From Bacillota bacterium (GTDB taxonomy: Bacteria; Bacillota; Dethiobacteria; Dethiobacterales; Dethiobacteraceae), in NCBI GenBank assembly GCA_018725565.1, contig QLUR01000017.1, positions 1 to 55,389 on the forward strand: a DNA stretch of 55,389 nucleotides, given 5' to 3'. Each line of letters begins with the position of its first letter. The stretch's first letter is position 1. This document shows positions 1-55,312 of this stretch, one piece after another. The position numbers and the translations under genes were made by a program. The notes under the pieces were generated by a model. It was not told where the DNA came from, did no database searches, and worked only from the letters and a program-made list of their open reading frames with translations.

Positions 1-77
1 AAGAACTGTGGCCGGATGTGACAAGAACTCTGGCCGGATGTCACAGGATTGCTGGCCGGATGCCGCAGGAATACTCA
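1..77. repeat. Left copy of 77-bp terminal inverted repeat (IS21-like end)
   Basis: These 77 bases are the exact reverse complement of the last 77 bases of the window; identity stops sharply at base 78. The repeat contains three tandem ~22-bp units, each carrying a form of the core CATCCGGCCA preceded by TGTGA, TGTCA or TGCGG. Several similar transposase-binding units near the tip are characteristic of IS21-family ends, so an IS21-like assignment is a reasonable inference, but no transposase gene is inside the window. Read outward from the unique DNA, the repeat begins TGAGTATTCC. A 77-base overlap is also what a k=77 de Bruijn assembly leaves where a contig runs into a repeat. Confidence 0.75.
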
Positions 78-2737
78 ACCGAAGCTTTTTGTTTGTTTAT
101 GATGACGACTACTTTGGCGATAAACTCTTCTGGGTTCTCACGGAATAACCATAGTTTTTCTTTTGCCATGCCTTCAAGGATAGCTGTAACTGTCCTTCGC
201 GTAAGGTTTGTGCCATCGGAGACCTTACCGATAATATCATAAGTCGCAAGACCGCCCTGCGCCCTGTCGAGTTTCTTTGTTTCGGTGCGCTCAACATTGA
301 AATCCGTGCCTTCCTGCGACCCTTTTGTGAGGGTGTATGACAGGCGGGCGACTTTCAACTCTGTGTTAATTGCTGTAATTGACTTATTAATGAGTTCATC
401 GCCGTCGAATTCAACGGTGTAGGCGTATTTCTTATTAATGCGCTCCCAGAGTTCCTTGAAGTTCTTCCAATTCTCGTTCAGCGGGTTATCTTTAACCTTC
501 GTGTCGTGACCATTACCCGCCATATCTTTGAGAACGCGTGGATCAAATATAGCCTGTACCAGTTTGTGGACGCTCTCGCCGAGATGAGCAAGTTCAGGCT
601 TCATCGGTGCGAAGCTACCTGTTTCAGCCGCGGCTCGATAGTTATCTGTTACACCGCCATTGTCGTCAACATAATCATTTCGGACGAGATAATTATAGAC
701 TGCTGTGGCTTCTGCAACTGTGAGCGTATGTGTTTGCTCGTCATTCAGATAAACCGTCCTGCCAGAGAAGTATTCCATGCTTGCCTTTGTTGGGCGTTCG
801 TATAGGTCTGACTTAATCTCACTCTGCAAATCAGCAACAAAGCCTGCATAGCTTTCACTTGCAACTACGGTGAGCATATTCACACTCTGAACGAGGGATT
901 CACCACAAGCCTCCAAGTCCTGACGCTCGCCAAGGCTATTCACGCACAGGCGCAAGCCGCGTCCTACTTCTTGCCTCTTTGCTGTAGCGTTGTCAGAGTG
1001 TTTCAGGGTACATATCTGGAAGACGTTGGGATTATCCCACCCTTCGCGTAAGGCTGAGTGAGAAAAGATAAACCTTGTCGGCTCTTCAAAAGAAAGTAAT
1101 CTTTCCTTGTTTTTGAGAATAAGGTCATAAGCAGATATGTCATCGGATCCCTCGGAGCCGCGCTTGACTGTGCTATTCACAGCGCGACCTTTCTTGTCTA
1201 TGGAAAAATAGCCACGATGCGTATCATTTGTCTCAATACCACGCAAATAGGATTGATATTCCGTTGGGAAAAGTGTTAGCCGTTCGTTCAGTGCGGCCGT
1301 ATATTCCTCTTCAAAGATGCGTCCGTATTCACCAAGTATTTCCTCACCTTCGTCACTGTACTGTCGATACTTCGCCACCTCATCAATGAAGAAAAGAGAT
1401 AGGCACTTGATGCCTTGCTCAAATAGTTTTTCCTCCTTGTCAGAATGGGAATTGATTGTTTCACGGATTTGAATACGGCGAATATCCTCCTCGTTGACGT
1501 TTCCGCTTGCTTCACCAGCAGCTAGACTATCACCATTCGAAAACGTGACCGTTGCACATATCGGGTCAATTTCGGCGATGGAGATTCCTCTGTATTCCTC
1601 TAATCCCTTTGAAGCGGTATAAAGACTGTCGGCTACTTCAAGTAAGTGCGTTTCTCTCTTTGGCGAACCCGCTACACGGCTGACTTCAAATTCCAACCGG
1701 GCACGGGGCGGCTTCTTTTTATCTATTACTATGGCGGCAAGGTACATATAACGATTCGTACCGCCGAGATTCTTTAGTTCGAATCCCTTGACCTCTATTT
1801 TTTTAACTAGCTTCTGCTTGAATGCGTCCAGCGCATCAAGGACATAAACAAGATTGTGGCTCGTCTTGTGTGTTGCCGAATAGTTTAGCGAGAACAGTGG
1901 CGCGAAGCTCTTTTTCAGGGCGTTCTGTGTCGCCGTTCCGCCCATCTTCTGTGGCTCGTCGAGAATGATGATCGGACGGTTCGCCTTAATAACGTCGATC
2001 GGTCGACGGCTGCCAAACTCGTCGCGCTTGGTGTAGATTATCCTCGCTGCCTCGTTGCCGCTCCTGCCCTCAATGTTCTTTTCTTCATTCATCGTAGTAT
2101 TAAACGCCTGCGTGTTGATAATCATTACATTTATACCACTATTCTGTGAAAAATCATCAAGCTGGTGAAGATTCGAAGAATTATAAATAAAATGGCGTGC
2201 TTTAAGTCCGTATATTTGCATAAAGTGGTCTTCCAGCATTTCAAAGGACTTCTTCACTCCTTCGCGGATGGCGATGCTCGGTACGACCACGATGAATTTG
2301 CTCCACCCATATGCCTTATAGAGTTCGAACATAGTCTTAATGTAGACATAAGTCTTTCCAGTTCCGGTTTCCATCTCCACGTCAAGCGATACAGCGCCAA
2401 GTCCAGCTGCTATGTCGGTGGAATACTTAATATTGTTTGCCGTCTGAACGGCGTGAATATTTTTCAACAACTGTTCTTTTGAGAGTTGCACGTTTTCGTT
2501 GCGGTAGGCGGTCTCATATTCCTCCTCGACAAGTCGCGTTTCCTCAACAGACAAGGCTGAATAAGAGATTGGCATAAATCCTCTACGCGCTGTTCTTTCT
2601 TCTTCGCTAAGTCGTTTCTCGCTACCGATGTCTCGGCGGTATTTCGACTGGCCAACATTCGGCTGACCCTTAAATACACGAACGACGCTATCTGCGGCTT
2701 CCGTCTGGAAAGGCTGTATCTTAAACTGAAACTTCAT
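41..2737 (-). pseudogene. Type III restriction enzyme Res subunit, truncated by IS end
   Basis: This is the ATP-dependent helicase/translocase and nuclease subunit of a type III restriction-modification complex, which acts with Mod. Helicase motifs are clear: GTGKT at residues 125-129, a DEPQKM Walker B-like motif near 262, NYSATHK, SALREGWDNPNVFQ and the arginine-finger motif RQEVGRGLRL. The start codon directly follows the mod stop (TAAATG). The last ~13 codons (SVEYSCGIRPAIL) are read from the 77-bp terminal repeat, not from native sequence. Family members of ~970 residues carry a PD-(D/E)xK nuclease at the extreme C-terminus. Here the protein stops at 898 just after the NPEEFIAKV region, so the nuclease is missing. 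The fragment would be cleavage-dead, though it may still bind Mod and hydrolyse ATP. The rest of the gene may lie beyond the mobile element. Confidence 0.88.
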
Positions 2738-4654
2738 TTACAGTACCATCCTTATCGTGTTCGGGCTGTAAGTAGCAAACACCTGCTCGAAGTTAACCAT
2801 CGCACTGTCGTTTGCGAAGCTGCTGTCGCGGAACACGGCATAGTAAGGCTTCTTCTTGGCAATTTCCGTAATGAGACCAGTGTCGACCTGCTTGAAGCAA
2901 GCAATCAGGAAGTTATCATTAACCGAAAATACATCGCTATTCTGCGTGATTCTCGCCGAGAGCGGAATACCAAGATCGAGCATCACTTGGAATAGCAAGT
3001 CTTCATCCGTGCGATCTTCTTTGATGTTATCCATAAAGCCGAAAAGACTCTGCTGCTTTTGAGCCATTGTCAGGAACTCTTCTGGCGTGTAGTACACGTC
3101 TTTCATATTACTGCTATCAAGTTTGAGGACGCGGAAACCTGTATCAACTTGCAGACCTTTTATGCTTTCTTTAATCTTTGCACCGGCACGGCGAATGCGC
3201 TCTTTTCCGATTTCGCAGATAGTCGGGTATTCGGCAATATCCGTCTTTTCAGGAAGTTGCACCATTATAAATTTTCGCCGCGCATTGTCCTCGGAGTTCA
3301 ACTGCATTATCGCATGAGCGGTAGTTGCAGAACCAGAGAAGAAGTCGAGAATAAGGTCATCTTTTCTCGAAACCAATAGTATCAAGTGCTTTATCAATTC
3401 AACAGGCTTCGGGAAGTCGAAATATTTAGCACCGAATAGCGCTTCCAATTCGGAAGAACCATTCTTTGTATTAGCTATATCACTGAATACGGACTTTGGA
3501 TTGTAAGTCCCACGCTCTTTTTCGTAGAACAGGATGCCTTGTTTATTGAAATAAAAACGAACGACTTTTTGCCCCTTTGAGTCGTAGGTTTCTTTTCCAG
3601 CCATCCAATCACGCACTTGATTAGCCATACCCCAACCAGCCTTAATAGTTGTGGGGGCTACAAGTTTACCATTCTTAAATTCCATTTTTTCAGAGATAAT
3701 AAACTCTTGCTCACTTCCGCCCAATACGCCTGTAAACACGGCATTATCACCCTCGAAAGGGAATCCCACAGGAAAAGTTATCTCCGTTGCAGGGTTTGCT
3801 TTGGAGATCTTCTTCAAGGCACCGTGTACTATGTTTTCATCGCTTATGGCATCAAAATTCGGCAAAACAGTTTTATTTTTGCAGTATACAAGAATATATT
3901 CGTGGGAACGTGTGAAATGCCCTGCTTGTGTACCAGTTCCTAAATCCCATATTGCTTGACATAGAAAATTTGACGAGCCGAAAATCTCATCACAGGCTTT
4001 GCGTAAATTGTGTGCTTCGCTATTGTCGTTGTTATCGGCGATGCTGATAAAGATTACTCCGTCTTCGGTCAACAAATCACGAGCAACCTTTAACCTTGGG
4101 TAAATCATATTCAGCCAGTCGGTGTGAAATCGTCCATTACTATCAAGGTTTGGCGTGAGGCGGTTGCCTTGCTCATCATACTGCCCGTCGCGTCGTAAAA
4201 ACTCACCAGTATCCTCCGCAAAATAATCCTCGTATACAAAATCCTTGCCGGTGTTATACGGTGGATCGATATATATCATTTTCACACGGTTGAGGTATGT
4301 CTCTCGAAGCAGTTTCAGAACATCCAGGTTATCGCCCTCTATGTAGAGATTCTCGGTCGTGTCAAAGTCCACGCTTTCCTCACGACATGGGCGCAGAGCA
4401 GCAGCAATCGGCGCATTGGCAAGCAGTATGCTCTTGCGCTTGTCCGGCCATGTGAACTGATAGCGTTCTTCACGCCCCTCAACAACGTGGGCGTTGATTT
4501 CCTGCGCTAATACATCCTTATCAATTGCACGGACGACCGAACCGTTCTCGTCTACGGTCTCGGTTACAGCGTTTGGGAACAGCTTTACGAGGGCAGCAAA
4601 ATTTTCGTCCGCGAGGGACGGTGTACGCATAGCAAGTTTTTCAGTATTACTCAT
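2738..4654 (-). CDS. Type III DNA adenine methyltransferase, Mod subunit
   Basis: This subunit recognises the target site and transfers methyl from S-adenosylmethionine to N6 of adenine in a type III restriction-modification complex. The catalytic motif DPPYN is at residues 130-134, and the SAM-binding motif DFFSGSATTAHA lies downstream near residue 440, the beta-class order of motifs. The segment between them is the likely target-recognition domain. At 638 residues it has the normal length for a type III Mod. Its start overlaps the upstream DUF4391 gene by 8 bases and its stop abuts the res start, so mod and res are translationally linked. It appears intact, so host methylation may persist even though Res is truncated. 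Confidence 0.93.
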   Translation of the reverse strand: MSNTEKLAMRTPSLADENFAALVKLFPNAVTETVDENGSVVRAIDKDVLAQEINAHVVEGREERYQFTWPDKRKSILLANAPIAAALRPCREESVDFDTTENLYIEGDNLDVLKLLRETYLNRVKMIYIDPPYNTGKDFVYEDYFAEDTGEFLRRDGQYDEQGNRLTPNLDSNGRFHTDWLNMIYPRLKVARDLLTEDGVIFISIADNNDNSEAHNLRKACDEIFGSSNFLCQAIWDLGTGTQAGHFTRSHEYILVYCKNKTVLPNFDAISDENIVHGALKKISKANPATEITFPVGFPFEGDNAVFTGVLGGSEQEFIISEKMEFKNGKLVAPTTIKAGWGMANQVRDWMAGKETYDSKGQKVVRFYFNKQGILFYEKERGTYNPKSVFSDIANTKNGSSELEALFGAKYFDFPKPVELIKHLILLVSRKDDLILDFFSGSATTAHAIMQLNSEDNARRKFIMVQLPEKTDIAEYPTICEIGKERIRRAGAKIKESIKGLQVDTGFRVLKLDSSNMKDVYYTPEEFLTMAQKQQSLFGFMDNIKEDRTDEDLLFQVMLDLGIPLSARITQNSDVFSVNDNFLIACFKQVDTGLITEIAKKKPYYAVFRDSSFANDSAMVNFEQVFATYSPNTIRMVL

Positions 4655-5264
4655 TGGATCTTCCTCCTAATTCTATCTTCAATCGTCTTATTTCTTCGGC
4701 TAACTCCCACTTTCTACGGGGTTGGCGTTCAGTCATCGCTTTCTTTTCAAGGGCAGTTATTTGCTTTTGTAGTTTCACTTGACGGTCGTTCTCGGCGATG
4801 GTCATGTTAAGGTCTTTGCCACCAGTGAGGTCGATGCCGCCTATCTGAGCAATGATGTTCTCCCACATAGCTTCAAGGTCAAGTCCACTCAAGGATACCT
4901 TCCAGTCGGCGAGTGGCTTGCTTTCGGACATCAGCACCTTTTCGGCTCTATAAACGGCAAGCCGTGCATTGTCACCCGATTGAAGCACGAACAGCATCCG
5001 TTGGTCAATCAGCTTCGACAAAAGTGAAATGTTCTTCTTGTCACACTCTACAGTCTTCAGCGTGACCAGAACAACGTAAACCGCCGAAACGTCTGCGCTT
5101 GCCTTAATAGCCACTGTCTGCGGCGAGATTTCCGCCACAATCGATAGGCGGTTTATCTGATCGTCAAAAAGCTTGCGGTCGGTAGGCGATGGCTTGAACC
5201 TATCGAATATCGCCTTCTTGGGAAGGGCTTTTGCAAGCTCAGTTGCCTTTGGCAGGCCTAACAT
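4647..5264 (-). CDS. DUF4391 domain protein of the defence operon
   Basis: This 205-aa protein begins MLGLPKATELAKALPKKAIF, which I recognise as the start of the DUF4391 family; its biochemical role is unknown. The C-terminal third is charged and probably coiled coil (QKQITALEKKAMTERQ and following). I chose the ATG at 5264 because AAGTGAGGTGG sits just upstream; a GTG three codons earlier overlaps that site. It lies between a helicase and the mod gene, with a short gap on one side and an 8-base overlap on the other. From memory, helicase-DUF4391-Mod-Res is a recurring arrangement in Firmicutes, which suggests it belongs to the restriction complex rather than being a passenger. Confidence 0.82.
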   Translation of the reverse strand: MLGLPKATELAKALPKKAIFDRFKPSPTDRKLFDDQINRLSIVAEISPQTVAIKASADVSAVYVVLVTLKTVECDKKNISLLSKLIDQRMLFVLQSGDNARLAVYRAEKVLMSESKPLADWKVSLSGLDLEAMWENIIAQIGGIDLTGGKDLNMTIAENDRQVKLQKQITALEKKAMTERQPRRKWELAEEIRRLKIELGGRSNE

Positions 5265-5274
5265 ACAAACCACC

Positions 5275-8200
5275 TCACTTTACAGCCACGAAGCAGACCA
5301 GTTCGAAATCGTCCAATCCGTCAATCGTTTTCGCAGCAAGAGATACTTGCTTGCCTGAAAGAAAACTGTCGATGGAATCTTCCTCATTCAGATCAACAAC
5401 GGACTTCACGGCAAAGTAGAGCAGATCAGAGTAGTGCCGCATATTTCTGCCGTCCTTGGTTTCGGCGTTGAACAGCCTGCACAATTCAACTTCGGGCTTA
5501 TCCTTACCTTTACATAGTTGCCGGAAAACATCGAGAAGTTTCTTTGGCTGCAGGTGGTCTATATGAATTACCGAACCGTCGCGAACGTAGACCATATAAA
5601 ATGGGTGCAGCTGGTTCTGGTTTTGTCTATTTATTCTGGCGTTCCGGTTCTTCAGTATGAATATCGTGCCGTTGGGCGAGTCGCCGTTGCCTGCTACCAC
5701 CGCGTGAAGACCAAACGGGGTATTATCAAGTTCCCCATGGTTCTTGACGTATTCGAGTAAGTCGAGCCGAAATTCATTCAGCCCCAAATCCATAATCGAA
5801 ACACCAGACTGCATTTCCTCAATGTCAATGACCTCGTTCTGTAGCTTTTCAAGCTGTGCCTTACGGTATTCGAGGTCACCTAATTCTTCAGGGTCGATGG
5901 GGTTGTCATCTCCCGTTGATGTCATAACGGTAGCCTTCATACGGGTTTCCACACGTCCTTTAAGTTCAAGGTACTTATCAAGGTCGATGTTAGGCCAGAA
6001 ATTCACAAGTTGTATCTTGTCATTACGGCTCCCGATACGATCAATACGTCCAAACCGTTGAATGATACGAACTGGGTTCCAATGGATGTCGTAGTTGACA
6101 CAGTAGTCGCAGTCTTGCAGATTTTGACCTTCCGATATACAGTCAGTCGCAATCAGAATGTCGATTTCGGCAGGATCGTCTGGCATCAACAGCTTTTTGT
6201 CTTTGGACATTGGCGAGAACAACGTTAGGATCGTATTCAGATCAGCACGCTTTAGCTTAACAGTCGTCCTTCCATCGGTCGTGCCAGTTATCATCGCGGT
6301 GTCAAGACCATACTTCTCCTTAACGATCGGAGCGACCTCTCTATAAAGGTAATCTACCGTATCAGAAAACGCTGAGAAGAGCAAAATTTTCTTATTGCCT
6401 GGATTGAACGGGTGCTGGATTTTATCAGCGATTAGCTGGAACAGCGTTTGTAGTTTAGTGTCATGATCGGGCGTGATGTCCTCTATCAAAATCATTAACA
6501 GTTCCAGGATTTCAGAATCTTCGGCAAGTTTGGCCCGCCATGAGATATAGTCCATGTCAGCTAGGTCGATGTCCAACTTTTTGACCGTGCTTTCAAAGAA
6601 GTCAGTGTTGCTGTCATCACTGTCAAAGTCGTCCCCTGAAAATTCTTGCATGTTGATCATTCGCTGTGTTCCACTCACATAATCGTCGATATCAGCAATT
6701 GTGCTGTTGATCAAATTCCTAACACGACCAAGCGTAATGCGGAAGGAGTAGACCGAACTTTCAAGCCGTTTCAGGAGGTTGATACACATCAAACGACGGA
6801 TACCGATTTCTCGTCCGGCACGATCAATGTTCTTACTTGGATCTATATATTTAACCCTTCGACTTTCAAGCAGGAAGTCGGTCGGAATGTAGATGGCGAG
6901 GTTCAGCTTCATTAATTGATCGTAAATCTCATCGTAGTCTATTGCCGATTCGAGGTCAGTCAACCTCGGGCGGAGCAGGAGTGGCTTCATTCTTTCAGGA
7001 AATTTGCCTATTTCAGCCATGTTGTAGTATTTTTCAATATGCTTACGCGAACGGGCAATCGTTACACTATCAAGCATCGTAAAAAAGTCAAAATCAAGAG
7101 AGCTCAACAATTCCTCAGTCGTTCGCTCTTCAGGTTTGAGTTTACTCCACTTGTTAAAGGCAGTCTGGGCGTTTCGGAAGATAACGTCAATCGGCTTCGC
7201 AGTGTCGAGTTTTTCATTTATTAACATGGGATTGCCTTCATATGCAAGTGCAAGCTGATGCCTAAGATCGGAAAAACCGTTATTCACAGGCGTTGCCGAA
7301 AGCATGAGAACTTTTGTCTTCACGCCCTTGCGGATTACCTTGTTTAACAATTGGAGATAGCGGTTTTCACGTTTGTCATCTCCTCTTCCTGAATAGTCTC
7401 CACCATTACGGAAGTTATGGCTTTCGTCGATGACTACAAGGTCGTAGTTGCCCCAATTCAGTTTAGAAAGGTCGATGCCATCTGAAAAACCTCGTTCCCT
7501 TGACAAATCTGTATGGTAAAGGACATCATAGCGCAGACGGTCTGCCGCTATTGGATTGTTCAAATAGTTTTCTTTGAAGGTGTGCCAGTTGTCGCCTAAC
7601 TTCTTCGGACAAAGCACAAGAACCATGCGATTTCGAAGTTCGTAATACTTAATGACTGAGAGCGCAGTGAACGTCTTACCAAGACCAACACTGTCTGCTA
7701 GTATACAGCCGTTATATTTTTCTAATTTATTAATAATCGCTAGCGTCGCGTCCTTTTGGAAATCGTAGAGCTTATTCCATATCTTCGTTTCCTTGAAGCC
7801 TGTTGCCTCGTTAGGTAACACGTCCTCAGAGATGTTCTCTAAAAACTCATTGAAAATATTGTATAGAGCGACGAAATATATAAATTCAGGAGTGTTTTCA
7901 TTATAGGCGGCAGTAATACCATCAACAACCTGGTCAGTAACATTCTCAAGCAGGCTTTTATCGTTCCATATTTGGTCGAACATACGAATATACTCGCCTG
8001 ATAAAGGCGCGAACATCTTATTAACCGGGTTGATAATGTTGTTCCCACGTTCGCAGCCAATATCAGAGGTGGTGAAACCTTGAAGTGGCATATAAGTTGT
8101 GACTTCTGAGCCATGAACATTCATAAATCCACTAATATTACCGCCCGTCAGATTGGAACGAAACTGCACTTTATTTCGAATCCAATCGGCACATTCGCGA

Positions 8201-8511
8201 GCGATGGCTTTCTGGGTCAATTCGTTGCGTAGCTTAACCTCGAACTCCGTACCATAAAGGGATCGTTCTCTGTCAAGGCGAGGTATGTAAAACTCCCGTT
8301 TTGCTTTTGGAGCCTTCTCTTGTAAAAACGTTGGCGAGGTAAATATAAAGCGCAACTCATCAATACCATCAAGCTGTTTTTTTAGGGCTTGATAGGCATA
8401 TATAGAGAAACAAGCCGCCGCCACAGACAGCTTATCACCCTTTTTTATTGTAACTGTTAAATCGTCTTTGACGGTTCTACTCACATTATCGAGCATTTCT
8501 GGCATTTGCAT
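5275..8511 (-). CDS. SNF2-type helicase with PLD-like N-terminus
   Basis: This is a large superfamily 2 ATPase expected to translocate on or remodel DNA. The ATPase motifs are GCILADSVGLGKTFTA (Walker A), LVVIDESHNFRN (DESH box), KVLMLSATPVNN and, in the second RecA lobe, ATDCISEGQNLQ and IIQRFGRIDRIGS. The ~200-residue N-terminal region resembles the phospholipase D-like region found in this group of helicases, but I cannot identify a complete HKD motif, so nuclease activity is uncertain. I place the start at 8511 rather than 8583 because GAGGGTGA lies just upstream of that ATG and the extra residues read like shadow sequence. It sits between the HTH gene and DUF4391 in the same operon. The product is about 1078 residues. 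Confidence 0.85.
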   Translation of the reverse strand: MQMPEMLDNVSRTVKDDLTVTIKKGDKLSVAAACFSIYAYQALKKQLDGIDELRFIFTSPTFLQEKAPKAKREFYIPRLDRERSLYGTEFEVKLRNELTQKAIARECADWIRNKVQFRSNLTGGNISGFMNVHGSEVTTYMPLQGFTTSDIGCERGNNIINPVNKMFAPLSGEYIRMFDQIWNDKSLLENVTDQVVDGITAAYNENTPEFIYFVALYNIFNEFLENISEDVLPNEATGFKETKIWNKLYDFQKDATLAIINKLEKYNGCILADSVGLGKTFTALSVIKYYELRNRMVLVLCPKKLGDNWHTFKENYLNNPIAADRLRYDVLYHTDLSRERGFSDGIDLSKLNWGNYDLVVIDESHNFRNGGDYSGRGDDKRENRYLQLLNKVIRKGVKTKVLMLSATPVNNGFSDLRHQLALAYEGNPMLINEKLDTAKPIDVIFRNAQTAFNKWSKLKPEERTTEELLSSLDFDFFTMLDSVTIARSRKHIEKYYNMAEIGKFPERMKPLLLRPRLTDLESAIDYDEIYDQLMKLNLAIYIPTDFLLESRRVKYIDPSKNIDRAGREIGIRRLMCINLLKRLESSVYSFRITLGRVRNLINSTIADIDDYVSGTQRMINMQEFSGDDFDSDDSNTDFFESTVKKLDIDLADMDYISWRAKLAEDSEILELLMILIEDITPDHDTKLQTLFQLIADKIQHPFNPGNKKILLFSAFSDTVDYLYREVAPIVKEKYGLDTAMITGTTDGRTTVKLKRADLNTILTLFSPMSKDKKLLMPDDPAEIDILIATDCISEGQNLQDCDYCVNYDIHWNPVRIIQRFGRIDRIGSRNDKIQLVNFWPNIDLDKYLELKGRVETRMKATVMTSTGDDNPIDPEELGDLEYRKAQLEKLQNEVIDIEEMQSGVSIMDLGLNEFRLDLLEYVKNHGELDNTPFGLHAVVAGNGDSPNGTIFILKNRNARINRQNQNQLHPFYMVYVRDGSVIHIDHLQPKKLLDVFRQLCKGKDKPEVELCRLFNAETKDGRNMRHYSDLLYFAVKSVVDLNEEDSIDSFLSGKQVSLAAKTIDGLDDFELVCFVAVK

Positions 8512-8546
8512 TGGCTTCACCCTCTTTTCCAGTACTTTACATTGTT

Positions 8547-8738
8547 TTACTCTATCTCGGCACTCTTCCCGCTGTTTACCCAAGCGTCCACTTCTGAAAT
8601 CTTGAACTTGTACTGTTTGCCAATCCGACGATGCGGAATGACGTCTTTTTTAATCCAATTCCGGATGGTGTCCTTGCTTACGCCGAGATGCTCGGCAATT
8701 CCTTCAAGGCTTGACCACTTTTCAGGTTCGTTAGTCAT
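8547..8738 (-). CDS. Small helix-turn-helix protein (excisionase/MerR-like)
   Basis: This 63-aa protein is essentially one winged helix-turn-helix: SLEGIAEHLGVSKDTIRNWI is the HTH, and PHRRIGKQYKFKISEVDAWV is the typical wing and terminal helix of excisionase/DNA-binding domain families. AGGAGG lies 9 bases ahead of the ATG and overlaps the stop of the preceding 28-aa ORF. It probably binds DNA at a specific site. Because it opens the helicase-DUF4391-mod-res block, it may be the local regulator of the restriction genes or part of the complex. A role as a true recombination directionality factor is possible but nothing nearby supports it. Confidence 0.85.
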   Translation of the reverse strand: MTNEPEKWSSLEGIAEHLGVSKDTIRNWIKKDVIPHRRIGKQYKFKISEVDAWVNSGKSAEIE

Positions 8739-49436: not shown

Positions 49437-50744
49437 ATGGAGCGAATCATCACGCGAACAGCCCCATCGGTTCCGTTGCTGCCAAGAAGACCAAGGGTTG
49501 CCGCCTATGCACGGGTATCAAGCGGCAAAGACGCGATGCTCCACTCGCTCGCTGCCCAGGTTAGCTATTACAGCGGACTGATTCAGCGGCGGCCAGACTG
49601 GGAATATGCCGGAGTCTATGCCGATGAAGCACTGACGGGAACCAAAGATAGCCGGCCTGAGTTCCGGCGTATGCTCGCCGACTGCAGGGAGAACAAGGTT
49701 GACATGATCATTACCAAATCAATTTCCCGCTTTGCCAGGAATACCGTTACACTTCTCAAGACGGTGCGGGAGTTAAAACTGCTCTGCGTGGATGTATATT
49801 TTGAGGAGCAGAACATCCATTCCATCAGCGGAGACGGGGAGCTTATGCTGACCATTCTTGCCAGCTACGCCCAAGAAGAAAGCAGGTCAGTAAGTGAAAA
49901 TTGCAAATGGCGTATCCGTAAGCAGTTTGAAAATGGCGAACTGGCCAATTTGCGCTTCATGTTTGGTTATAAAATTGAAAAGGGCAAAGTTGAAATTGAC
50001 CCTGAAGAATCGGCTATTGTTCGCATGATATTTGATGATTATATAAATGGCATGGGCGGCAGCAAGATTGCGGTGAAGTTAAAACAAAAGAACATACCTA
50101 CCATACGGGACGGGGATTGGAACAGCGAAAGAGTAATTGCAATTATTAAGAATGAAAAATATACAGGAAACGCCTTGCTCCAAAAAAAGTATGTAACAGA
50201 CCATTTAACAAAAAGGCTGGTCTGGAATAAAGGCAAATTACCCATGTATTTTGCGGAAGGCACACACCCCGCCATTATCGATACGAAAACTTTTGAAAGA
50301 GCACAGAAGGTCTTAAAAGAGCGGCGCAAGATTTGCGGTGCAAAGGGTGATACTCATAACCGTTACCCCTTTAGCAGAATTATTCGATGCGAAAATTGTG
50401 GTAAGAAATATAAGCGAAAAGCCGGGAATAGAAAGCCAGCATGGCAGTGCTCAACATACTTGGAACAGGGTAAAGCCGCCTGTCTTGCAAAGCAAATACC
50501 CGAAAACATACTTTATGAGGCAGCTACAGATGTCCTTGGGCTTAGTGAATTTGATGAAAGTATCTTCAAAGAAAAGATAACAGAAATCTTGGTGCCCGAG
50601 TTCAATAAGCTGGTCTTTGTGTTTTGTGATGGACATTTAGTTGAAAAGGTCTGGCAGGACAGGTCACGAAGGGAAAGCTGGACTGATGAAATGCGGCAGG
50701 CTGCTCGTGAAAAAGTAAAAGGGGTGAAGGAACAATGGCGGTAA
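49437..50744 (+). CDS. Large serine recombinase 1
   Basis: This 435-aa site-specific recombinase has an N-terminal resolvase domain with the nucleophilic serine in AAYARVSSGKDAMLHSLAAQ and the core ITKSISRFARNTVTLLKTVR. A recombinase domain (IDPEESAIVRMIFDDYINGM) and a zinc ribbon (IIRCENCGKKYKRKAG) follow. It lacks the long coiled coil of its neighbour. The end overlaps the start of recombinase 2 by ten bases, so the two are co-translated and may act together on prophage integration or excision. Confidence 0.93.
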   Translation: MERIITRTAPSVPLLPRRPRVAAYARVSSGKDAMLHSLAAQVSYYSGLIQRRPDWEYAGVYADEALTGTKDSRPEFRRMLADCRENKVDMIITKSISRFARNTVTLLKTVRELKLLCVDVYFEEQNIHSISGDGELMLTILASYAQEESRSVSENCKWRIRKQFENGELANLRFMFGYKIEKGKVEIDPEESAIVRMIFDDYINGMGGSKIAVKLKQKNIPTIRDGDWNSERVIAIIKNEKYTGNALLQKKYVTDHLTKRLVWNKGKLPMYFAEGTHPAIIDTKTFERAQKVLKERRKICGAKGDTHNRYPFSRIIRCENCGKKYKRKAGNRKPAWQCSTYLEQGKAACLAKQIPENILYEAATDVLGLSEFDESIFKEKITEILVPEFNKLVFVFCDGHLVEKVWQDRSRRESWTDEMRQAAREKVKGVKEQWR

Positions 50745-52312
50745 ATGTAAGAATAATACCGGCAACCCCTAAGCGACATTCAGCCCAAAATAATAATCTG
50801 ACTGCTAAACGAAGGGCTGCGGCTTATGCCAGGGTCTCCACCGATAGCGAGGAGCAATTGACTAGTTATGAGGCACAGGTGGACTACTATACAAAGTTTA
50901 TTAAGGAGCGTGCAGACTGGGAGTTTGTTAAGGTCTATACAGACGAAGGTATCAGCGCTACCAATACCAAGAAACGTGACGGATTTAACCAGATGATAGC
51001 AGATGCTTTGGCCGGGCAGATAGATTTAATTATAACAAAATCAGTAAGCCGTTTTGCCAGAAATACTGTGGACAGCCTTGTAACGGTGCGTCAGCTTAAG
51101 GAGAAAGGCGTGGAGGTCTACTTCGAGAAAGAAAATATTTATACGCTGGACAGTAAGGGTGAGCTTCTCATCACGATAATGTCCAGCCTTGCACAGGAGG
51201 AAAGCCGCTCCATATCCGAAAATGTCACATGGGGGCAGCGCAAGCGTATGGCAGATGGAAAGGTCAGCCTGCCATACAGCCAATTTCTCGGCTATAAAAA
51301 GGGTGAGGACGGCCTGCCGGAAATTGTGGAATCCGAAGCGGATGTTGTGCGAATTATATTCCGGCTATTCATAGAGGGCAAAACGCCATCGGCGATTGCT
51401 AAGTTTTTAGAAACAAAAGGCAAATTATCCCCGGGCGGTAAAAAGAAATGGCAGGTTGCTACGGTAAAAAGCATTCTATCCAACGAAAAATACAAAGGGG
51501 ATGCTCTTTTACAAAAAACCTTCACAGTAGATTTTCTTAATAAAGCCAAGAAGATTAATGAAGGGGAGATTCCACAGTACTATGTTCAAAATAGCCACCC
51601 GGCAATAATCGACCCGAATGAGTTTGATGCGGTGCAGGCGGAAATAGAGCGTAGGAAAAAAATCGGTAGGCCCATAAGTTGTGAAAGCCCTTTCTCGGCA
51701 AAGATAGTCTGCGGTGAATGCGGGGGCTATTATGGTCCCAAGGTTTGGGGATCCAACACCAAATACCGGCGCACCATTTGGCGGTGTAATGAGAAATATA
51801 AGGGTGATAAGAAATGCTCGACTCCCCATATCACTGAGAATGAGGTTAAACAGAAGTTTATTGAAGCTTTCAACTCACTATCCAACTCTCGGGATGAGAT
51901 AATAGCTAACTGCCGATTGGCACAAAATGTTCTTTGCGATTGCACTGAGCTTGATGCTAAGTTAACTGAACTTCATCAAGAAATCGAGATTGTGGCAGAG
52001 TTATCAAGAAAAGCCATTTATGAAAACGCTCATGTTGCTATTAATCAGGATGAATGGCAAGAACGGAATAATGGGTATTTGGAAAGGCATCGAAAGGCAT
52101 TAGAACAGGTTGCTAGAATTGAAAAGTTGAAGCGCGAACGTCAGAACAAATACCTGATGCTTGAAAGCTTTATTAAAGGCATTGAAACCCGGCCATTAGT
52201 ATTGGAGGAATTTGACGATAAGCTGTGGGCGGTAGCTATAAAAAAAGTTAGGGTGATGCCTGACGGTAGGTTAGCGTTCAGCTTCAAGGATGGGACGGAA
52301 AATGAGGAATAG
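50735..52312 (+). CDS. Large serine recombinase 2
   Basis: This 525-aa serine recombinase carries its nucleophilic serine in AAAYARVSTDSEEQLTSYEA, the catalytic core IITKSVSRFARNTVDSLVTV, a recombinase domain (VESEADVVRIIFRLFIEGKT), a zinc ribbon (IVCGECGGYYGPKVWG) and a C-terminal coiled coil (LDAKLTELHQEIEIVAELSR). All parts needed for integrase function are present. It overlaps recombinase 1 by ten bases. It is the last gene before AT-richer host-like DNA, so one attachment site is expected just downstream. Confidence 0.94.
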   Translation: MAVNVRIIPATPKRHSAQNNNLTAKRRAAAYARVSTDSEEQLTSYEAQVDYYTKFIKERADWEFVKVYTDEGISATNTKKRDGFNQMIADALAGQIDLIITKSVSRFARNTVDSLVTVRQLKEKGVEVYFEKENIYTLDSKGELLITIMSSLAQEESRSISENVTWGQRKRMADGKVSLPYSQFLGYKKGEDGLPEIVESEADVVRIIFRLFIEGKTPSAIAKFLETKGKLSPGGKKKWQVATVKSILSNEKYKGDALLQKTFTVDFLNKAKKINEGEIPQYYVQNSHPAIIDPNEFDAVQAEIERRKKIGRPISCESPFSAKIVCGECGGYYGPKVWGSNTKYRRTIWRCNEKYKGDKKCSTPHITENEVKQKFIEAFNSLSNSRDEIIANCRLAQNVLCDCTELDAKLTELHQEIEIVAELSRKAIYENAHVAINQDEWQERNNGYLERHRKALEQVARIEKLKRERQNKYLMLESFIKGIETRPLVLEEFDDKLWAVAIKKVRVMPDGRLAFSFKDGTENEE

Positions 52313-52835
52313 CAAACAGTCTGAAAACAGTTGCTAAGAGTTCTTTTGTGCTATGAGATAGCGCAAGCTCAATGCAATTGCAAAAAAACAACGCAGCCTT
52401 CGAGCAATAATGTATCGGTTAAAAGGAATGACCAAAGTGACTATATTACTAAAGGCATAGAAGTTAAATAGTTTAAGCCCAACGAGCAGTCAGTATATGT
52501 TTTGAATTCCAGCAGATGAACCTGCTGGAATTCACTCAGAAACAAAATGCAAATCATTCAGACAACAAAGTAGACCCAACTGAAGATTTGAGTTTAAACT
52601 AAGGAAAGGATTGTTTACAGTGGAACTATGTCTTTAGAGGACTATGGGATCTCGATCTCGAAGATATAGTCAAAGAATTTTTTTGTAACTGTTATTAGCT
52701 ATTCTCTAATATCAGGATGGATAATACGAAGGGTCTAATCGCAGGATTCTGACTACAGGTAAAAATAAATAATTGTCTCTTTAGGTTTATTTCCTTAATC
52801 ATATGAATTATAATTAACTATAGGTAATTTAAATA
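52313..52835. other. Gene-free, AT-rich stretch between recombinases and riboswitch
   Basis: About 520 bases with no convincing ORF. The only clear structure is a perfect hairpin at 52504-52533. Composition shifts here from GC-richer prophage to AT-richer sequence, so the prophage-host junction and an attachment core probably lie in it. I could not match it to a left-end copy. Confidence 0.45.
52504..52533. repeat. Perfect 12-bp inverted repeat
   Basis: GAATTCCAGCAG (52504-52515) and CTGCTGGAATTC (52522-52533) flank ATGAAC. No T-run follows in either direction, so it is not an obvious terminator. It could be a protein-binding or recombination site near the prophage boundary, or a remnant hairpin. 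Confidence 0.6.
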
Positions 52836-52944
52836 CAAGATGCTGAATCCTTTTGGAGTGGGGGAACCATTTTTCTGGGGTGAATTTCTATCAAGAAAAG
52901 GGGCAGCTATCCCTAACCCGACAGCTAACCTCGTAAGCATTAAG
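52836..52944 (+). promoter_or_regulatory. c-di-AMP riboswitch (ydaO/yuaA class)
   Basis: Consensus blocks of the ydaO class appear in order: GGGGGAACC (52860-52868), GGGGTGAAT (52877-52885), AGGGGCAGC, then AACCCGACAGCTAACCTCGT (52915-52934). Outer stem P1 can form from ATGCT (52840-52844) and AGCAT (52936-52940). This class binds cyclic di-AMP and usually turns expression off. It precedes a potassium/proton-antiporter-type gene, a known target of c-di-AMP control. Confidence 0.9.
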
Positions 52945-52997
52945 CCACAATGCAAAATACTAATAAAGTATATTTGTTTGTGGTTTTTATTTTTAAG
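52942..52997 (+). terminator. Terminator hairpin of the riboswitch expression platform
   Basis: AGCCACAA near 52943 can pair with TTGTGGTT near 52977-52984, with an inner ATACT/AGTAT stem, followed by TTTTTATTTTT. It starts right after P1, so ligand binding that stabilises P1 should permit termination. Confidence 0.65.
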
Positions 52998-53086
52998 TTA
53001 AATATCCACTTGAAAACCAGATTAGTACTGAATTATTTACACTCCCTCAAATAATATTTTTTAAGAGGAGGTTTACCTAGACTAAG

Positions 53087-54595
53087 ATGGAACAATTTTT
53101 TGATACCGATTACCTGATTTTGCTCATGGCTCTTTTATTGATTGTGGGGGTGTTAGTTGCGAAATTTTCTGCTCGACTTGGAGTTCCTGCATTAGTACTT
53201 TTTATTTTAGCAGGTATGGCTGCGGGAAGTGATGGTTTAGGATTAATATATTTTGATAATGTTCAACTTGCACAAATGGTAGGTATGCTTGCCTTAATAA
53301 TTATTCTTTTCGAGGGCGGGCTGCAAACTAAATGGACGACGGTAAAACCCGTGGCGGTTCCATCTATTTTTCTAGCATCCATTGGGGTTCTAATAACTTC
53401 ACTAGTAGTAGCTGTTACTGCCAAATTTGTGTTAGGTATAACATGGTTTGAGGGATTTCTGTTTGGTGCAATTGTAAGCTCAACGGACGCTGCTGCGGTA
53501 TTTGCCGTTCTAAAGGGTCAAAACCTGCGTGAAAGGCTAAGGGCAACACTGGAATTCGAATCAGGTTCAAATGACCCGATGGCATTCCTTCTTACCTTAA
53601 CCTTCGTTGAACTGCTTTTGCTTGACAAATCCTATGTGAACTTTTGGCTTATTGGTTCATTCTTCTGGCAGATGGGAATTGCCGCTATTCTTGGTTTTGT
53701 CATGGGCAAACTAGCTGCCATGGCAATAAATAAAATAAACTTAGATTCAAGTGGTCTGTACCCTGTGTTTGCACTGGCTTTTGCACTTTTAACTTACAGT
53801 TTAACCAGCCTGGTAGGAGCTAGTGGGATATTGGCAGTTTATGTATCCGCTCTTGTTATCGGCAATTCTGAAATAACATTTAAACACTCAATTTTTGGGT
53901 TTAATGAAGGTTTCGCATGGATAATGCAGATTTTGATGTTTATGATTCTTGGTTTATTAGTATTTCCAACGCAGCTGTTTGTCCCAAACATTATGTTAAA
54001 TGGATTGCTCCTTTCTGCAGTATTAATGTTTTTTGCTCGCCCAGTAGCTGTATTCATCTCGACCATCAAAATGGGGTTTAGTTTAAAGGAAAAATTTTTT
54101 CTTTCCTGGGCAGGTTTAAAAGGAGCAGTACCTATTGTACTGGCAACTTATCCATTGACTGCCGGTTTAGAAAACAGCCATTTATTCTTTAATGTTGTAT
54201 TTTTTGTTGTGTTAACTTCTGCTTTAATACAGGGTTCAAGTATTATGTTATTTGCTGAAAAACTTAAATTAACTATACCTAAAAGGGTAGAATCTCCCCA
54301 TTCTTTGGAGCTAATATCCATCGGGAAAGCTAATGCAGAAATCATTGAATTCCAAGTGTGTGAGGCTAACGACATAACTGGCAAGGCTTTAGCAAATATT
54401 ACTTTTCCAAAGGATGTGCTGGTCACCGCTATAATACGCTCTGGTCAATTAATTACTCCGACAGGCATAACAAAAGTTGAGGCTGGAGATATTCTATATA
54501 TTCTTGTGGATAAAAAAAGTAAAAAAGAGCTTATAGAACTTCTGAATAATCGAAAGGCAGACTTTGAAGATGTGATTTGTACAGAACAAATGTAA
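53087..54595 (+). CDS. Potassium(sodium)/proton antiporter, CvrA/NhaP2 type
   Basis: This 502-aa membrane antiporter of the CPA1/NhaP group has about twelve hydrophobic segments from residue 10 to 390. Key residues lie in GAIVSSTDAAAVFAVLKGQN and EFESGSNDPMAFLLTLTF (the ND pair of cation sites). The C-terminal ~100 residues (IIEFQVCEANDITGKALANI and on) form a TrkA-C/RCK-C regulatory domain. The nearest AGGAGG is ~15 bases from the ATG, an unusually long spacing. It exports K+ or Na+ in exchange for protons and is under the c-di-AMP riboswitch upstream. Confidence 0.9.
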   Translation: MEQFFDTDYLILLMALLLIVGVLVAKFSARLGVPALVLFILAGMAAGSDGLGLIYFDNVQLAQMVGMLALIIILFEGGLQTKWTTVKPVAVPSIFLASIGVLITSLVVAVTAKFVLGITWFEGFLFGAIVSSTDAAAVFAVLKGQNLRERLRATLEFESGSNDPMAFLLTLTFVELLLLDKSYVNFWLIGSFFWQMGIAAILGFVMGKLAAMAINKINLDSSGLYPVFALAFALLTYSLTSLVGASGILAVYVSALVIGNSEITFKHSIFGFNEGFAWIMQILMFMILGLLVFPTQLFVPNIMLNGLLLSAVLMFFARPVAVFISTIKMGFSLKEKFFLSWAGLKGAVPIVLATYPLTAGLENSHLFFNVVFFVVLTSALIQGSSIMLFAEKLKLTIPKRVESPHSLELISIGKANAEIIEFQVCEANDITGKALANITFPKDVLVTAIIRSGQLITPTGITKVEAGDILYILVDKKSKKELIELLNNRKADFEDVICTEQM

Positions 54596-54638
54596 CAATT
54601 CATAACAATGAAATTTTAAAAGGGAGGTTAGCGTTAAC

Positions 54639-54962
54639 ATGTCTCATGAGCTTAAATTAGTAGTATCAATTGTTGCCAAAGAGAAATCTGATCGAGTTAT
54701 TGAAGCCATTGAAAAAGCTGGTGCTATTAAAAGTACTATTATGCTCGCCAGGGGGAGAAGCAGAAATAATCCTAAGTTGTTTTTTGGGATGCAAATTGAG
54801 CCAATGCGAGAAGTTATCTTCACTTTAGTACCCAAAGAAAAAGCAGAGGTTATTTTTGAGATTGCAATGAAGGAAGGGAATTTAGATAAACCCTTAAATG
54901 GATTGGTGTTTATAGTAGACTTAGAAAAAGTCGGTGGAATTGACTTAAGCATGCTTGAGTAA
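54639..54962 (+). CDS. PII-like signalling protein
   Basis: This 107-aa protein has the PII ferredoxin-like fold pattern: LKLVVSIVAKEKSDRVIEAI, a short T-loop-like segment with GRSRNNPKLFFGMQIEPMRE, and VIFEIAMKEGNLDKPLNGLV. The canonical uridylylation Tyr motif of GlnB is absent. It lies 43 bases after the antiporter behind AAAGGGAGG, so it is probably co-transcribed and may bind the antiporter or sense a nucleotide. Its ligand is unknown. Confidence 0.85.
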   Translation: MSHELKLVVSIVAKEKSDRVIEAIEKAGAIKSTIMLARGRSRNNPKLFFGMQIEPMREVIFTLVPKEKAEVIFEIAMKEGNLDKPLNGLVFIVDLEKVGGIDLSMLE

Positions 54963-55312
54963 AAACAAGTAAGCCATATTCTTAATGTTAATATTCTAGC
55001 AGAAAGTTAAGTCTAAATGGGGCATGCAAAATGCACCCCCCATCCTTTAAATCGTTGAACATTAGACCAAGGGGTGTGCATTGTATCATTTTGTAGTAGA
55101 TTAGCCAAATAATCTACCATCTATTGATACAAGGATTGTGTCGGTGGGTGGTTTTGTTTTGTCTTGAAAAGGCTAGAAACCAGCCGCTTTCGGGCTTTTT
55201 GCTTTTCACCCAGTAGCAATAGTTGGTATTTTCCAGAGGGCTTTTTCGCAGGACACTTGACTTGAACCGTGGCGGTTTACGAGGTAGCTCAAGGGGCAAA
55301 TCGTTAAAAGAA
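54963..55312. other. Gene-free region before right terminal repeat
   Basis: About 350 bases without a convincing gene. A hairpin at 55017-55043 (ATGGGG / CCCCAT around CATGCAAAATGCA) may be a weak terminator for the antiporter/PII operon. Nearby CAAAATGCACCCC (55026-55038) is mirrored imperfectly by GGGGTGTGCATTG (55071-55083). One minus-strand frame is open across 55114-55341, but it runs into the terminal repeat, has no SD site and resembles no known protein. Confidence 0.5.
55017..55043 (+). terminator. Possible terminator after PII-like gene
   Basis: ATGGGG (55017-55022) pairs with CCCCAT (55038-55043); the loop contains a further TGC/GCA pair. Only a short T-run (CCTTTAA) follows, so strength is doubtful. 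Confidence 0.4.

Follow-up and report, generated by a model that had tools for sequence, protein, structure and literature searches.

We propose that a c-di-AMP riboswitch, a cation/proton antiporter gene and a gene for a PII-like protein form a single operon near the right end of this Dethiobacteraceae contig, in which c-di-AMP acts as an OFF switch on the antiporter and on a PII regulator recruited from a DUF1538 system. We would put the chances that this combined reading is right at about even. At high c-di-AMP, the ligand would stabilise the P1 stem of the riboswitch, the adjacent terminator would form and the antiporter and PII genes would be left untranscribed; at low c-di-AMP, RNA polymerase would read through the leader and both proteins would be made. 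The PII protein, a trimer if it resembles other PII proteins, would then bind and gate the co-encoded antiporter, a contact that we infer from the linkage of the two genes and from the purifying selection on them. As this PII family normally accompanies DUF1538 cation/proton antiporters, the protein seems to have changed client, and it would have moved away from DUF1538 (UmpAB-type) antiporters while staying with cation/proton exchange. CPA1 antiporters are dimers, a point that counts against our explanation. The window (the whole stretch of 55,389 nucleotides that was analysed) is the only one among the loci examined to carry the full trio of riboswitch, antiporter and PII. The riboswitch part of the locus is ordinary, with a less usual target for a member of its family, and the PII-antiporter pairing would be a new variant.

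A cmscan of the whole window against Rfam gave RF00379, the c-di-AMP (ydaO/yuaA) riboswitch, as the sole match at the gathering threshold (86 bits against 38, E = 1e-18, complete over model positions 1-134). The aptamer occupies 52831-52954 on the plus strand, with E = 1.2e-20 when the window's own genome, G000, was scanned. Upstream, a possible plus-strand promoter (52786-52814) has a perfect TATAAT at 52809-52814, a poor -35 element (TTTATT) and a 17-nt spacing; it is a weak candidate, found by eye and missing from the list of the consensus scan. Directly 3' of the 3' strand of P1 lies the expression platform, a terminator hairpin with its U tract (52942-52994, plus strand). The hairpin itself (52942-52986) folds at -16.0 kcal/mol and is followed by a T-rich tail, and the surrounding region (52925-53060) has a folding z of -2.67 against 200 shuffles. 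The hairpin was not on the list of a simple terminator scan, probably because of its internal mismatches. The strong riboswitch and terminator-like platform given in a preliminary description of this DNA thus both hold up.

The direction of the switch is best judged from all four antiporter leaders that carry the riboswitch (the window, L066, L078 and L086), in each of which a terminator hairpin lies downstream of P1 and shares no bases with it. As P1 and the terminator can thus form side by side in every one of them, an OFF layout is likeliest, and we regard the leader as a transcriptional OFF switch in which ligand binding and termination are predicted. No antiterminator conserved across the four leaders was found; an alternative GCAUU/AAUGC hairpin in the window has a pairing probability of about 0.2 and is not kept in L066. 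Because no antiterminator is common to the four, the OFF direction is one that we infer. The kdpFABC c-di-AMP riboswitch is described, in the passages of PMC6488665 that deal with it, as acting OFF by termination. Like that riboswitch of B. thuringiensis and those of kimA and ktrAB in B. subtilis, the window has a complete aptamer with a terminator right after it. Such riboswitches control a K+ importer or a cell-wall hydrolase, whereas the target here is a cation/proton antiporter together with a PII gene.

This target makes an OFF switch unexpected. According to the relevant part of PMC7857571, c-di-AMP stimulates exporters and inhibits importers, and on such physiological logic alone the leader might instead be an ON switch, through which high c-di-AMP would induce K+ efflux in keeping with the activation of CpaA and KhtTU by the same messenger. 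However, P1 and terminator sit side by side and are compatible in all four leaders, and the characterised members of the family, in the passages surveyed, act OFF; we therefore consider ON control improbable. OFF control of an exporter would be less out of place if the role of the protein lay in pH or Na+ homeostasis under scarce K+.

The association of riboswitch and antiporter recurs elsewhere. Of 97 genomes of the class, 3 have a homologue of the antiporter (E up to 1e-40), as do 34 of a sample of 398 from the phylum (E up to 1e-60); the window's own is included in each count. Neighbours were counted in these draft genomes at the best-scoring loci rather than at every match, with four antiporter matches left out. 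In 4 of 32 loci, from genomes of four families, the antiporter has RF00379 directly upstream in the same orientation; besides the window these are L066 (G223, antiporter 71% identical), L078 (G275) and L086 (G107), the Rfam scans having covered 31 antiporter loci beyond the window. With 48 RF00379 matches listed among the 97 whole genomes of the class, chance alone is very unlikely to have placed one a few hundred bases or less from an antiporter. At E up to 0.5, RF00379 was absent from L099, L100, L004, L065 and L068; in L005 and L098 the contig edge is reached before the leader region. We considered whether the riboswitch is a feature of DUF1538-PII operons and rejected this: in 17 genomes holding both (G000 excluded, coordinates compared by eye), none lies within 25 kb of such an operon, the closest being about 27 kb away in G027, on what are fragmented contigs. 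The presence of ydaO RNAs upstream of antiporters of this kind may already be known; Nelson 2013 and Block 2010 are expected to contain gene lists for the c-di-AMP riboswitch.

c-di-AMP signalling is present in the organism, since G000 encodes a DAC-domain protein (148.8 bits) and has a second RF00379 (G000:C19:27694-27827, or L002 1501-1634; 73.6 bits) upstream of a hydrolase-like gene. This gene, named from its sequence, presumably encodes a relative of the SleB/CwlJ-type cell wall hydrolases.

The first gene of the operon (53087-54595, plus strand) encodes a 502-residue CPA1-type K+/H+ antiporter with Pfam Na_H_Exchanger and C-terminal TrkA_C (RCK_C) domains, and matches NCBIfam NF003716, 'potassium/proton antiporter', with 595.7 bits against a cut-off of 355, in agreement with the antiporter and TrkA-C domain first described. 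Its STDAAA and ESGSNDP motifs are aligned in 24 proteins. By family, the product is a PRK05326-type antiporter that exchanges monovalent cations for protons, K+ as its substrate being taken from the family name alone. It matches PRK05326-type antiporters (NF003716), which we take to be CvrA/NhaP2-like, over nearly its whole length and in both domains; unlike them, the gene has a c-di-AMP riboswitch upstream and a PII gene downstream.

Whether the antiporter might also sense c-di-AMP directly turns on its TrkA_C domain, for which the nearest PDB sequences are TrkA proteins. The c-di-AMP signature for RCK_C domains, in the form in which an excerpt of PMC10117811 gives it, occurs in none of 24 antiporters (the window and 23 of the 31 other loci), also when the hydrophobic positions are relaxed or the core D.R.....N is taken alone. 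PDB chain 4ys2, a Na+/H+ antiporter-like protein, likewise shows no such signature over the part that aligns, so that its absence does not exclude c-di-AMP binding. We take this chain to be a domain of S. aureus CpaA. As judged from sequence, the result is no proof of non-binding, yet it removes the support that the preliminary description had drawn from the TrkA_C domain for control at the level of the transporter. CpaA and KhtTU, K+ exporters activated by c-di-AMP, share with the window antiporter the combination of cation/proton antiport and an RCK_C domain; in contrast to them, the window antiporter has no match to the published signature and its expression is apparently repressed by c-di-AMP.

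The second gene (54639-54962, plus strand) starts 43 bp downstream of the antiporter on the same strand and encodes a PII-fold regulator of 107 residues, as had been proposed. It matches Pfam P-II (35.4 bits, cut-off 25), and its model (mean pLDDT 79.9) returned PII/GlnK entries for all 50 of the Foldseek matches listed (best E 1.6e-06). It matches no NCBIfam family and falls outside the canonical GlnB/GlnK proteins. The T-loop is short and the B-loop differs from TGxxGDGK (alignment A3), which is the canonical PII motif; nucleotide binding by this protein therefore cannot be assumed. One scan for viral contigs encoding the PII returned none.

In the window, and only there, the PII was found together with a c-di-AMP riboswitch, which raises the thought that the protein is a c-di-AMP receptor like DarA/PstA, passing the same signal on to the antiporter. 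However, its Pfam match (P-II) and its structure matches (GlnK-type) point elsewhere: for 18 PII members Pfam listed eight families at E up to 1, none of them the cyclic-di-AMP receptor family, and PstA is not among the PDB matches listed, where GlnK/GlnB-type proteins appear instead. As the Pfam, PDB sequence and fold searches all give P-II/GlnK, we rejected a DarA/PstA relationship, and a receptor role of this kind seems very unlikely. The proposed pair resembles GlnK-AmtB and SbtB-SbtA, in which, as the parts of PMC10710835 on these pairs describe, a PII-fold protein regulates a transporter; AmtB and SbtA are trimers for ammonium and bicarbonate, whereas the partner here would be a CPA1 antiporter.

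A DUF1538 gene adjoins 48 of 54 distinct PII loci (the best-scoring loci and three places of G245), the six without such a neighbour being the window, L005, L099, L004, L100 and L118. DUF1538 followed by a 'P-II family nitrogen regulator' was also seen on plasmids of Chelativorans sp. AA-79, Peptoclostridium acidaminophilum and Methylocystis rosea, in the three records examined of eight matches. The DUF1538 protein UmpAB of Halomonas zhaodongensis is reported, in the passages of PMC5484666 concerned, to be a Na+(Li+,K+)/H+ antiporter that works at pH 6.5-9.5 with an optimum of 9.0. DUF1538 (UmpAB)-PII operons appear to share the PII family with the window and place it beside a membrane family that includes a known monovalent cation/proton antiporter, but the window antiporter belongs to an unrelated family and the window PII to its own clade with altered signature residues. 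It is 32-44% identical to the DUF1538-linked members (A3), from which it is set apart in a separate clade with no DUF1538 neighbour of its own. In a midpoint-rooted tree of 72 sequences, built on only 99 columns, the PII proteins of the window, L098, L005, L099, L004 and L100 form one group (100/100) apart from the other 66, and four of these six have an antiporter or a remnant of one upstream.

Within this group the L098 protein is the most similar to that of the window (91% over the readable length), and it is followed by DUF1538 about 50 bp downstream, the contig edge cutting its upstream side. The client of the window PII may therefore be, or have been, a DUF1538 protein. By blastn, window 54656-55018 is 85.5% identical to L094, and the plus-strand stretch after the PII gene (54963-55018) aligns with the PII-DUF1538 intergenic region of L094 and L098, the homology to L098 ending near 55018, just before the expected start of DUF1538; the DUF1538 gene itself is absent. 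DUF1538 was not found in G000, G012 or G128, while 4 of the 10 genomes searched have it. In L098 (1195-3990; MAG CROMO_A_192) a gene for a UPF0182 membrane protein comes after PII-DUF1538.

These observations give rise to the main rival to our explanation, in which riboswitch and antiporter are the working unit and the PII is a client-less orphan of a PII-DUF1538 cassette whose DUF1538 gene has been lost. The place at which the homology stops and the lack of DUF1538 in G000 speak for it, as does the decay of the operon in relatives (G128, G012, G206 and G017). In L005, from G012 of the same family as G000, unrelated sequence takes over after the antiporter's C-terminus and the PII's first half; this 87% similar remnant speaks for contig C22 belonging to G000 (2.67 Mb, 98% complete, 4.67% estimated contamination). 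In L100 (G206), a stretch with broken frames between a small tyrosine recombinase and the PII resembles the antiporter's first 43 or so residues, with PALVLFIL intact, and then reads SKKELIQLL as near the antiporter C-terminus. Taken singly, its best two pieces reach 25.4 and 25.0 bits, whereas none of 500 plain shuffles exceeded 24.6, and for this reason we call it a probable deletion remnant of the antiporter. L065, from G128 of a different class, has antiporter DNA 98.2% identical over window 53054-54604, with neither RF00379 nor PII found at the locus; a group II intron follows the antiporter stop, a frame read as a transposase lies upstream, and the edges are sharp on both sides. This near-identity looks like recent horizontal transfer or assembly cross-contamination. 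In L004 a recombinase precedes the PII, which has an in-frame stop. Related small tyrosine recombinases (184-191 residues, 41-65% identical) lie directly upstream of PII or antiporter in L004, L068 and L100, which come from three distant genomes.

Against an orphan PII stand its intact frame and its conservation as a protein: compared with L098, dN is 0.048 and dS 0.58, a ratio of 0.08 (NG86) or 0.11 (YN00), although this mostly averages over time before any recent loss. The antiporter gives a ratio of 0.08 against L066, with dS near saturation, and 0.38-0.43 against G128, from few changes, the latter value perhaps reflecting slackened constraint in one copy; in two further pairs dS was not usable. 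Antiporter and PII have both been preserved as proteins through most of their history.

The second point against an orphan is L099, on contig JAGXSK010000293.1 of MAG CROMO_A_192, where antiporter (65% identical to that of the window) and PII (54%) stand together, both intact, with no DUF1538 within its 5.75 kb. The CROMO papers, in the portions that describe the site, concern groundwater of high pH in a serpentinising setting. By tblastn of the PII, this place (fetched twice, as L067 and L099) and the window are the only 2 of 32 antiporter loci with a PII match alongside; 30 of the 31 others have no adjoining match, L063 stopping at a contig edge. The linkage of the two genes thus recurs, in the window, in L099, in L005 with its cut PII and in the probable remnant of L100, but it is intact in only two of the 32 loci. 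Of the levels of control once suggested for the operon, that by RNA is upheld by the riboswitch family and its four loci, while the PII as partner protein has this narrow linkage only. On balance, we regard the PII as an orphan as possible but rather unlikely. Tentatively, and with distinctly less than even confidence, we suggest that the PII clade became a dedicated regulator of CPA1 antiporters after serving DUF1538, and that PII is a general regulator of cation/proton exchange in two unrelated families. If this were true, PII regulation would span a dimeric transporter family, and the window pair would additionally be under a c-di-AMP riboswitch.

Upstream of the operon, two large serine recombinase genes (49437-52312) with a ten-base overlap end about 520 bases before the riboswitch and close a tailed-phage-like gene set, as judged by eye. 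We rejected the operon as cargo of this upstream prophage with visible attachment repeats: no direct repeat longer than 14 bases links 52312-52900 with the window sequence on its left side, the longest being an AT-rich 14-mer that is probably due to chance, and no phage records similar to 52312-53086 were found. At the right contig end (55325-55389), CATCCGGCCA occurs three times at similar spacing, as might be seen where an insertion sequence or a repeat array ends. At the left end, before the phage genes, large minus-strand genes (41-8583) read like a restriction-modification or defence set.

In the open literature, surveyed partly by passages, we found no paper that relates PII to antiporters of the CPA1 or DUF1538 families. 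Our explanation, if true, would give a client to the large PII gene family that lies beside DUF1538 genes, for which we found no role described, and would connect PII signalling, which is familiar above all from the uptake of nitrogen and carbon, with the homeostasis of pH and cations. It would also pose the question of why a messenger that activates exporters elsewhere would switch an exporter off here.
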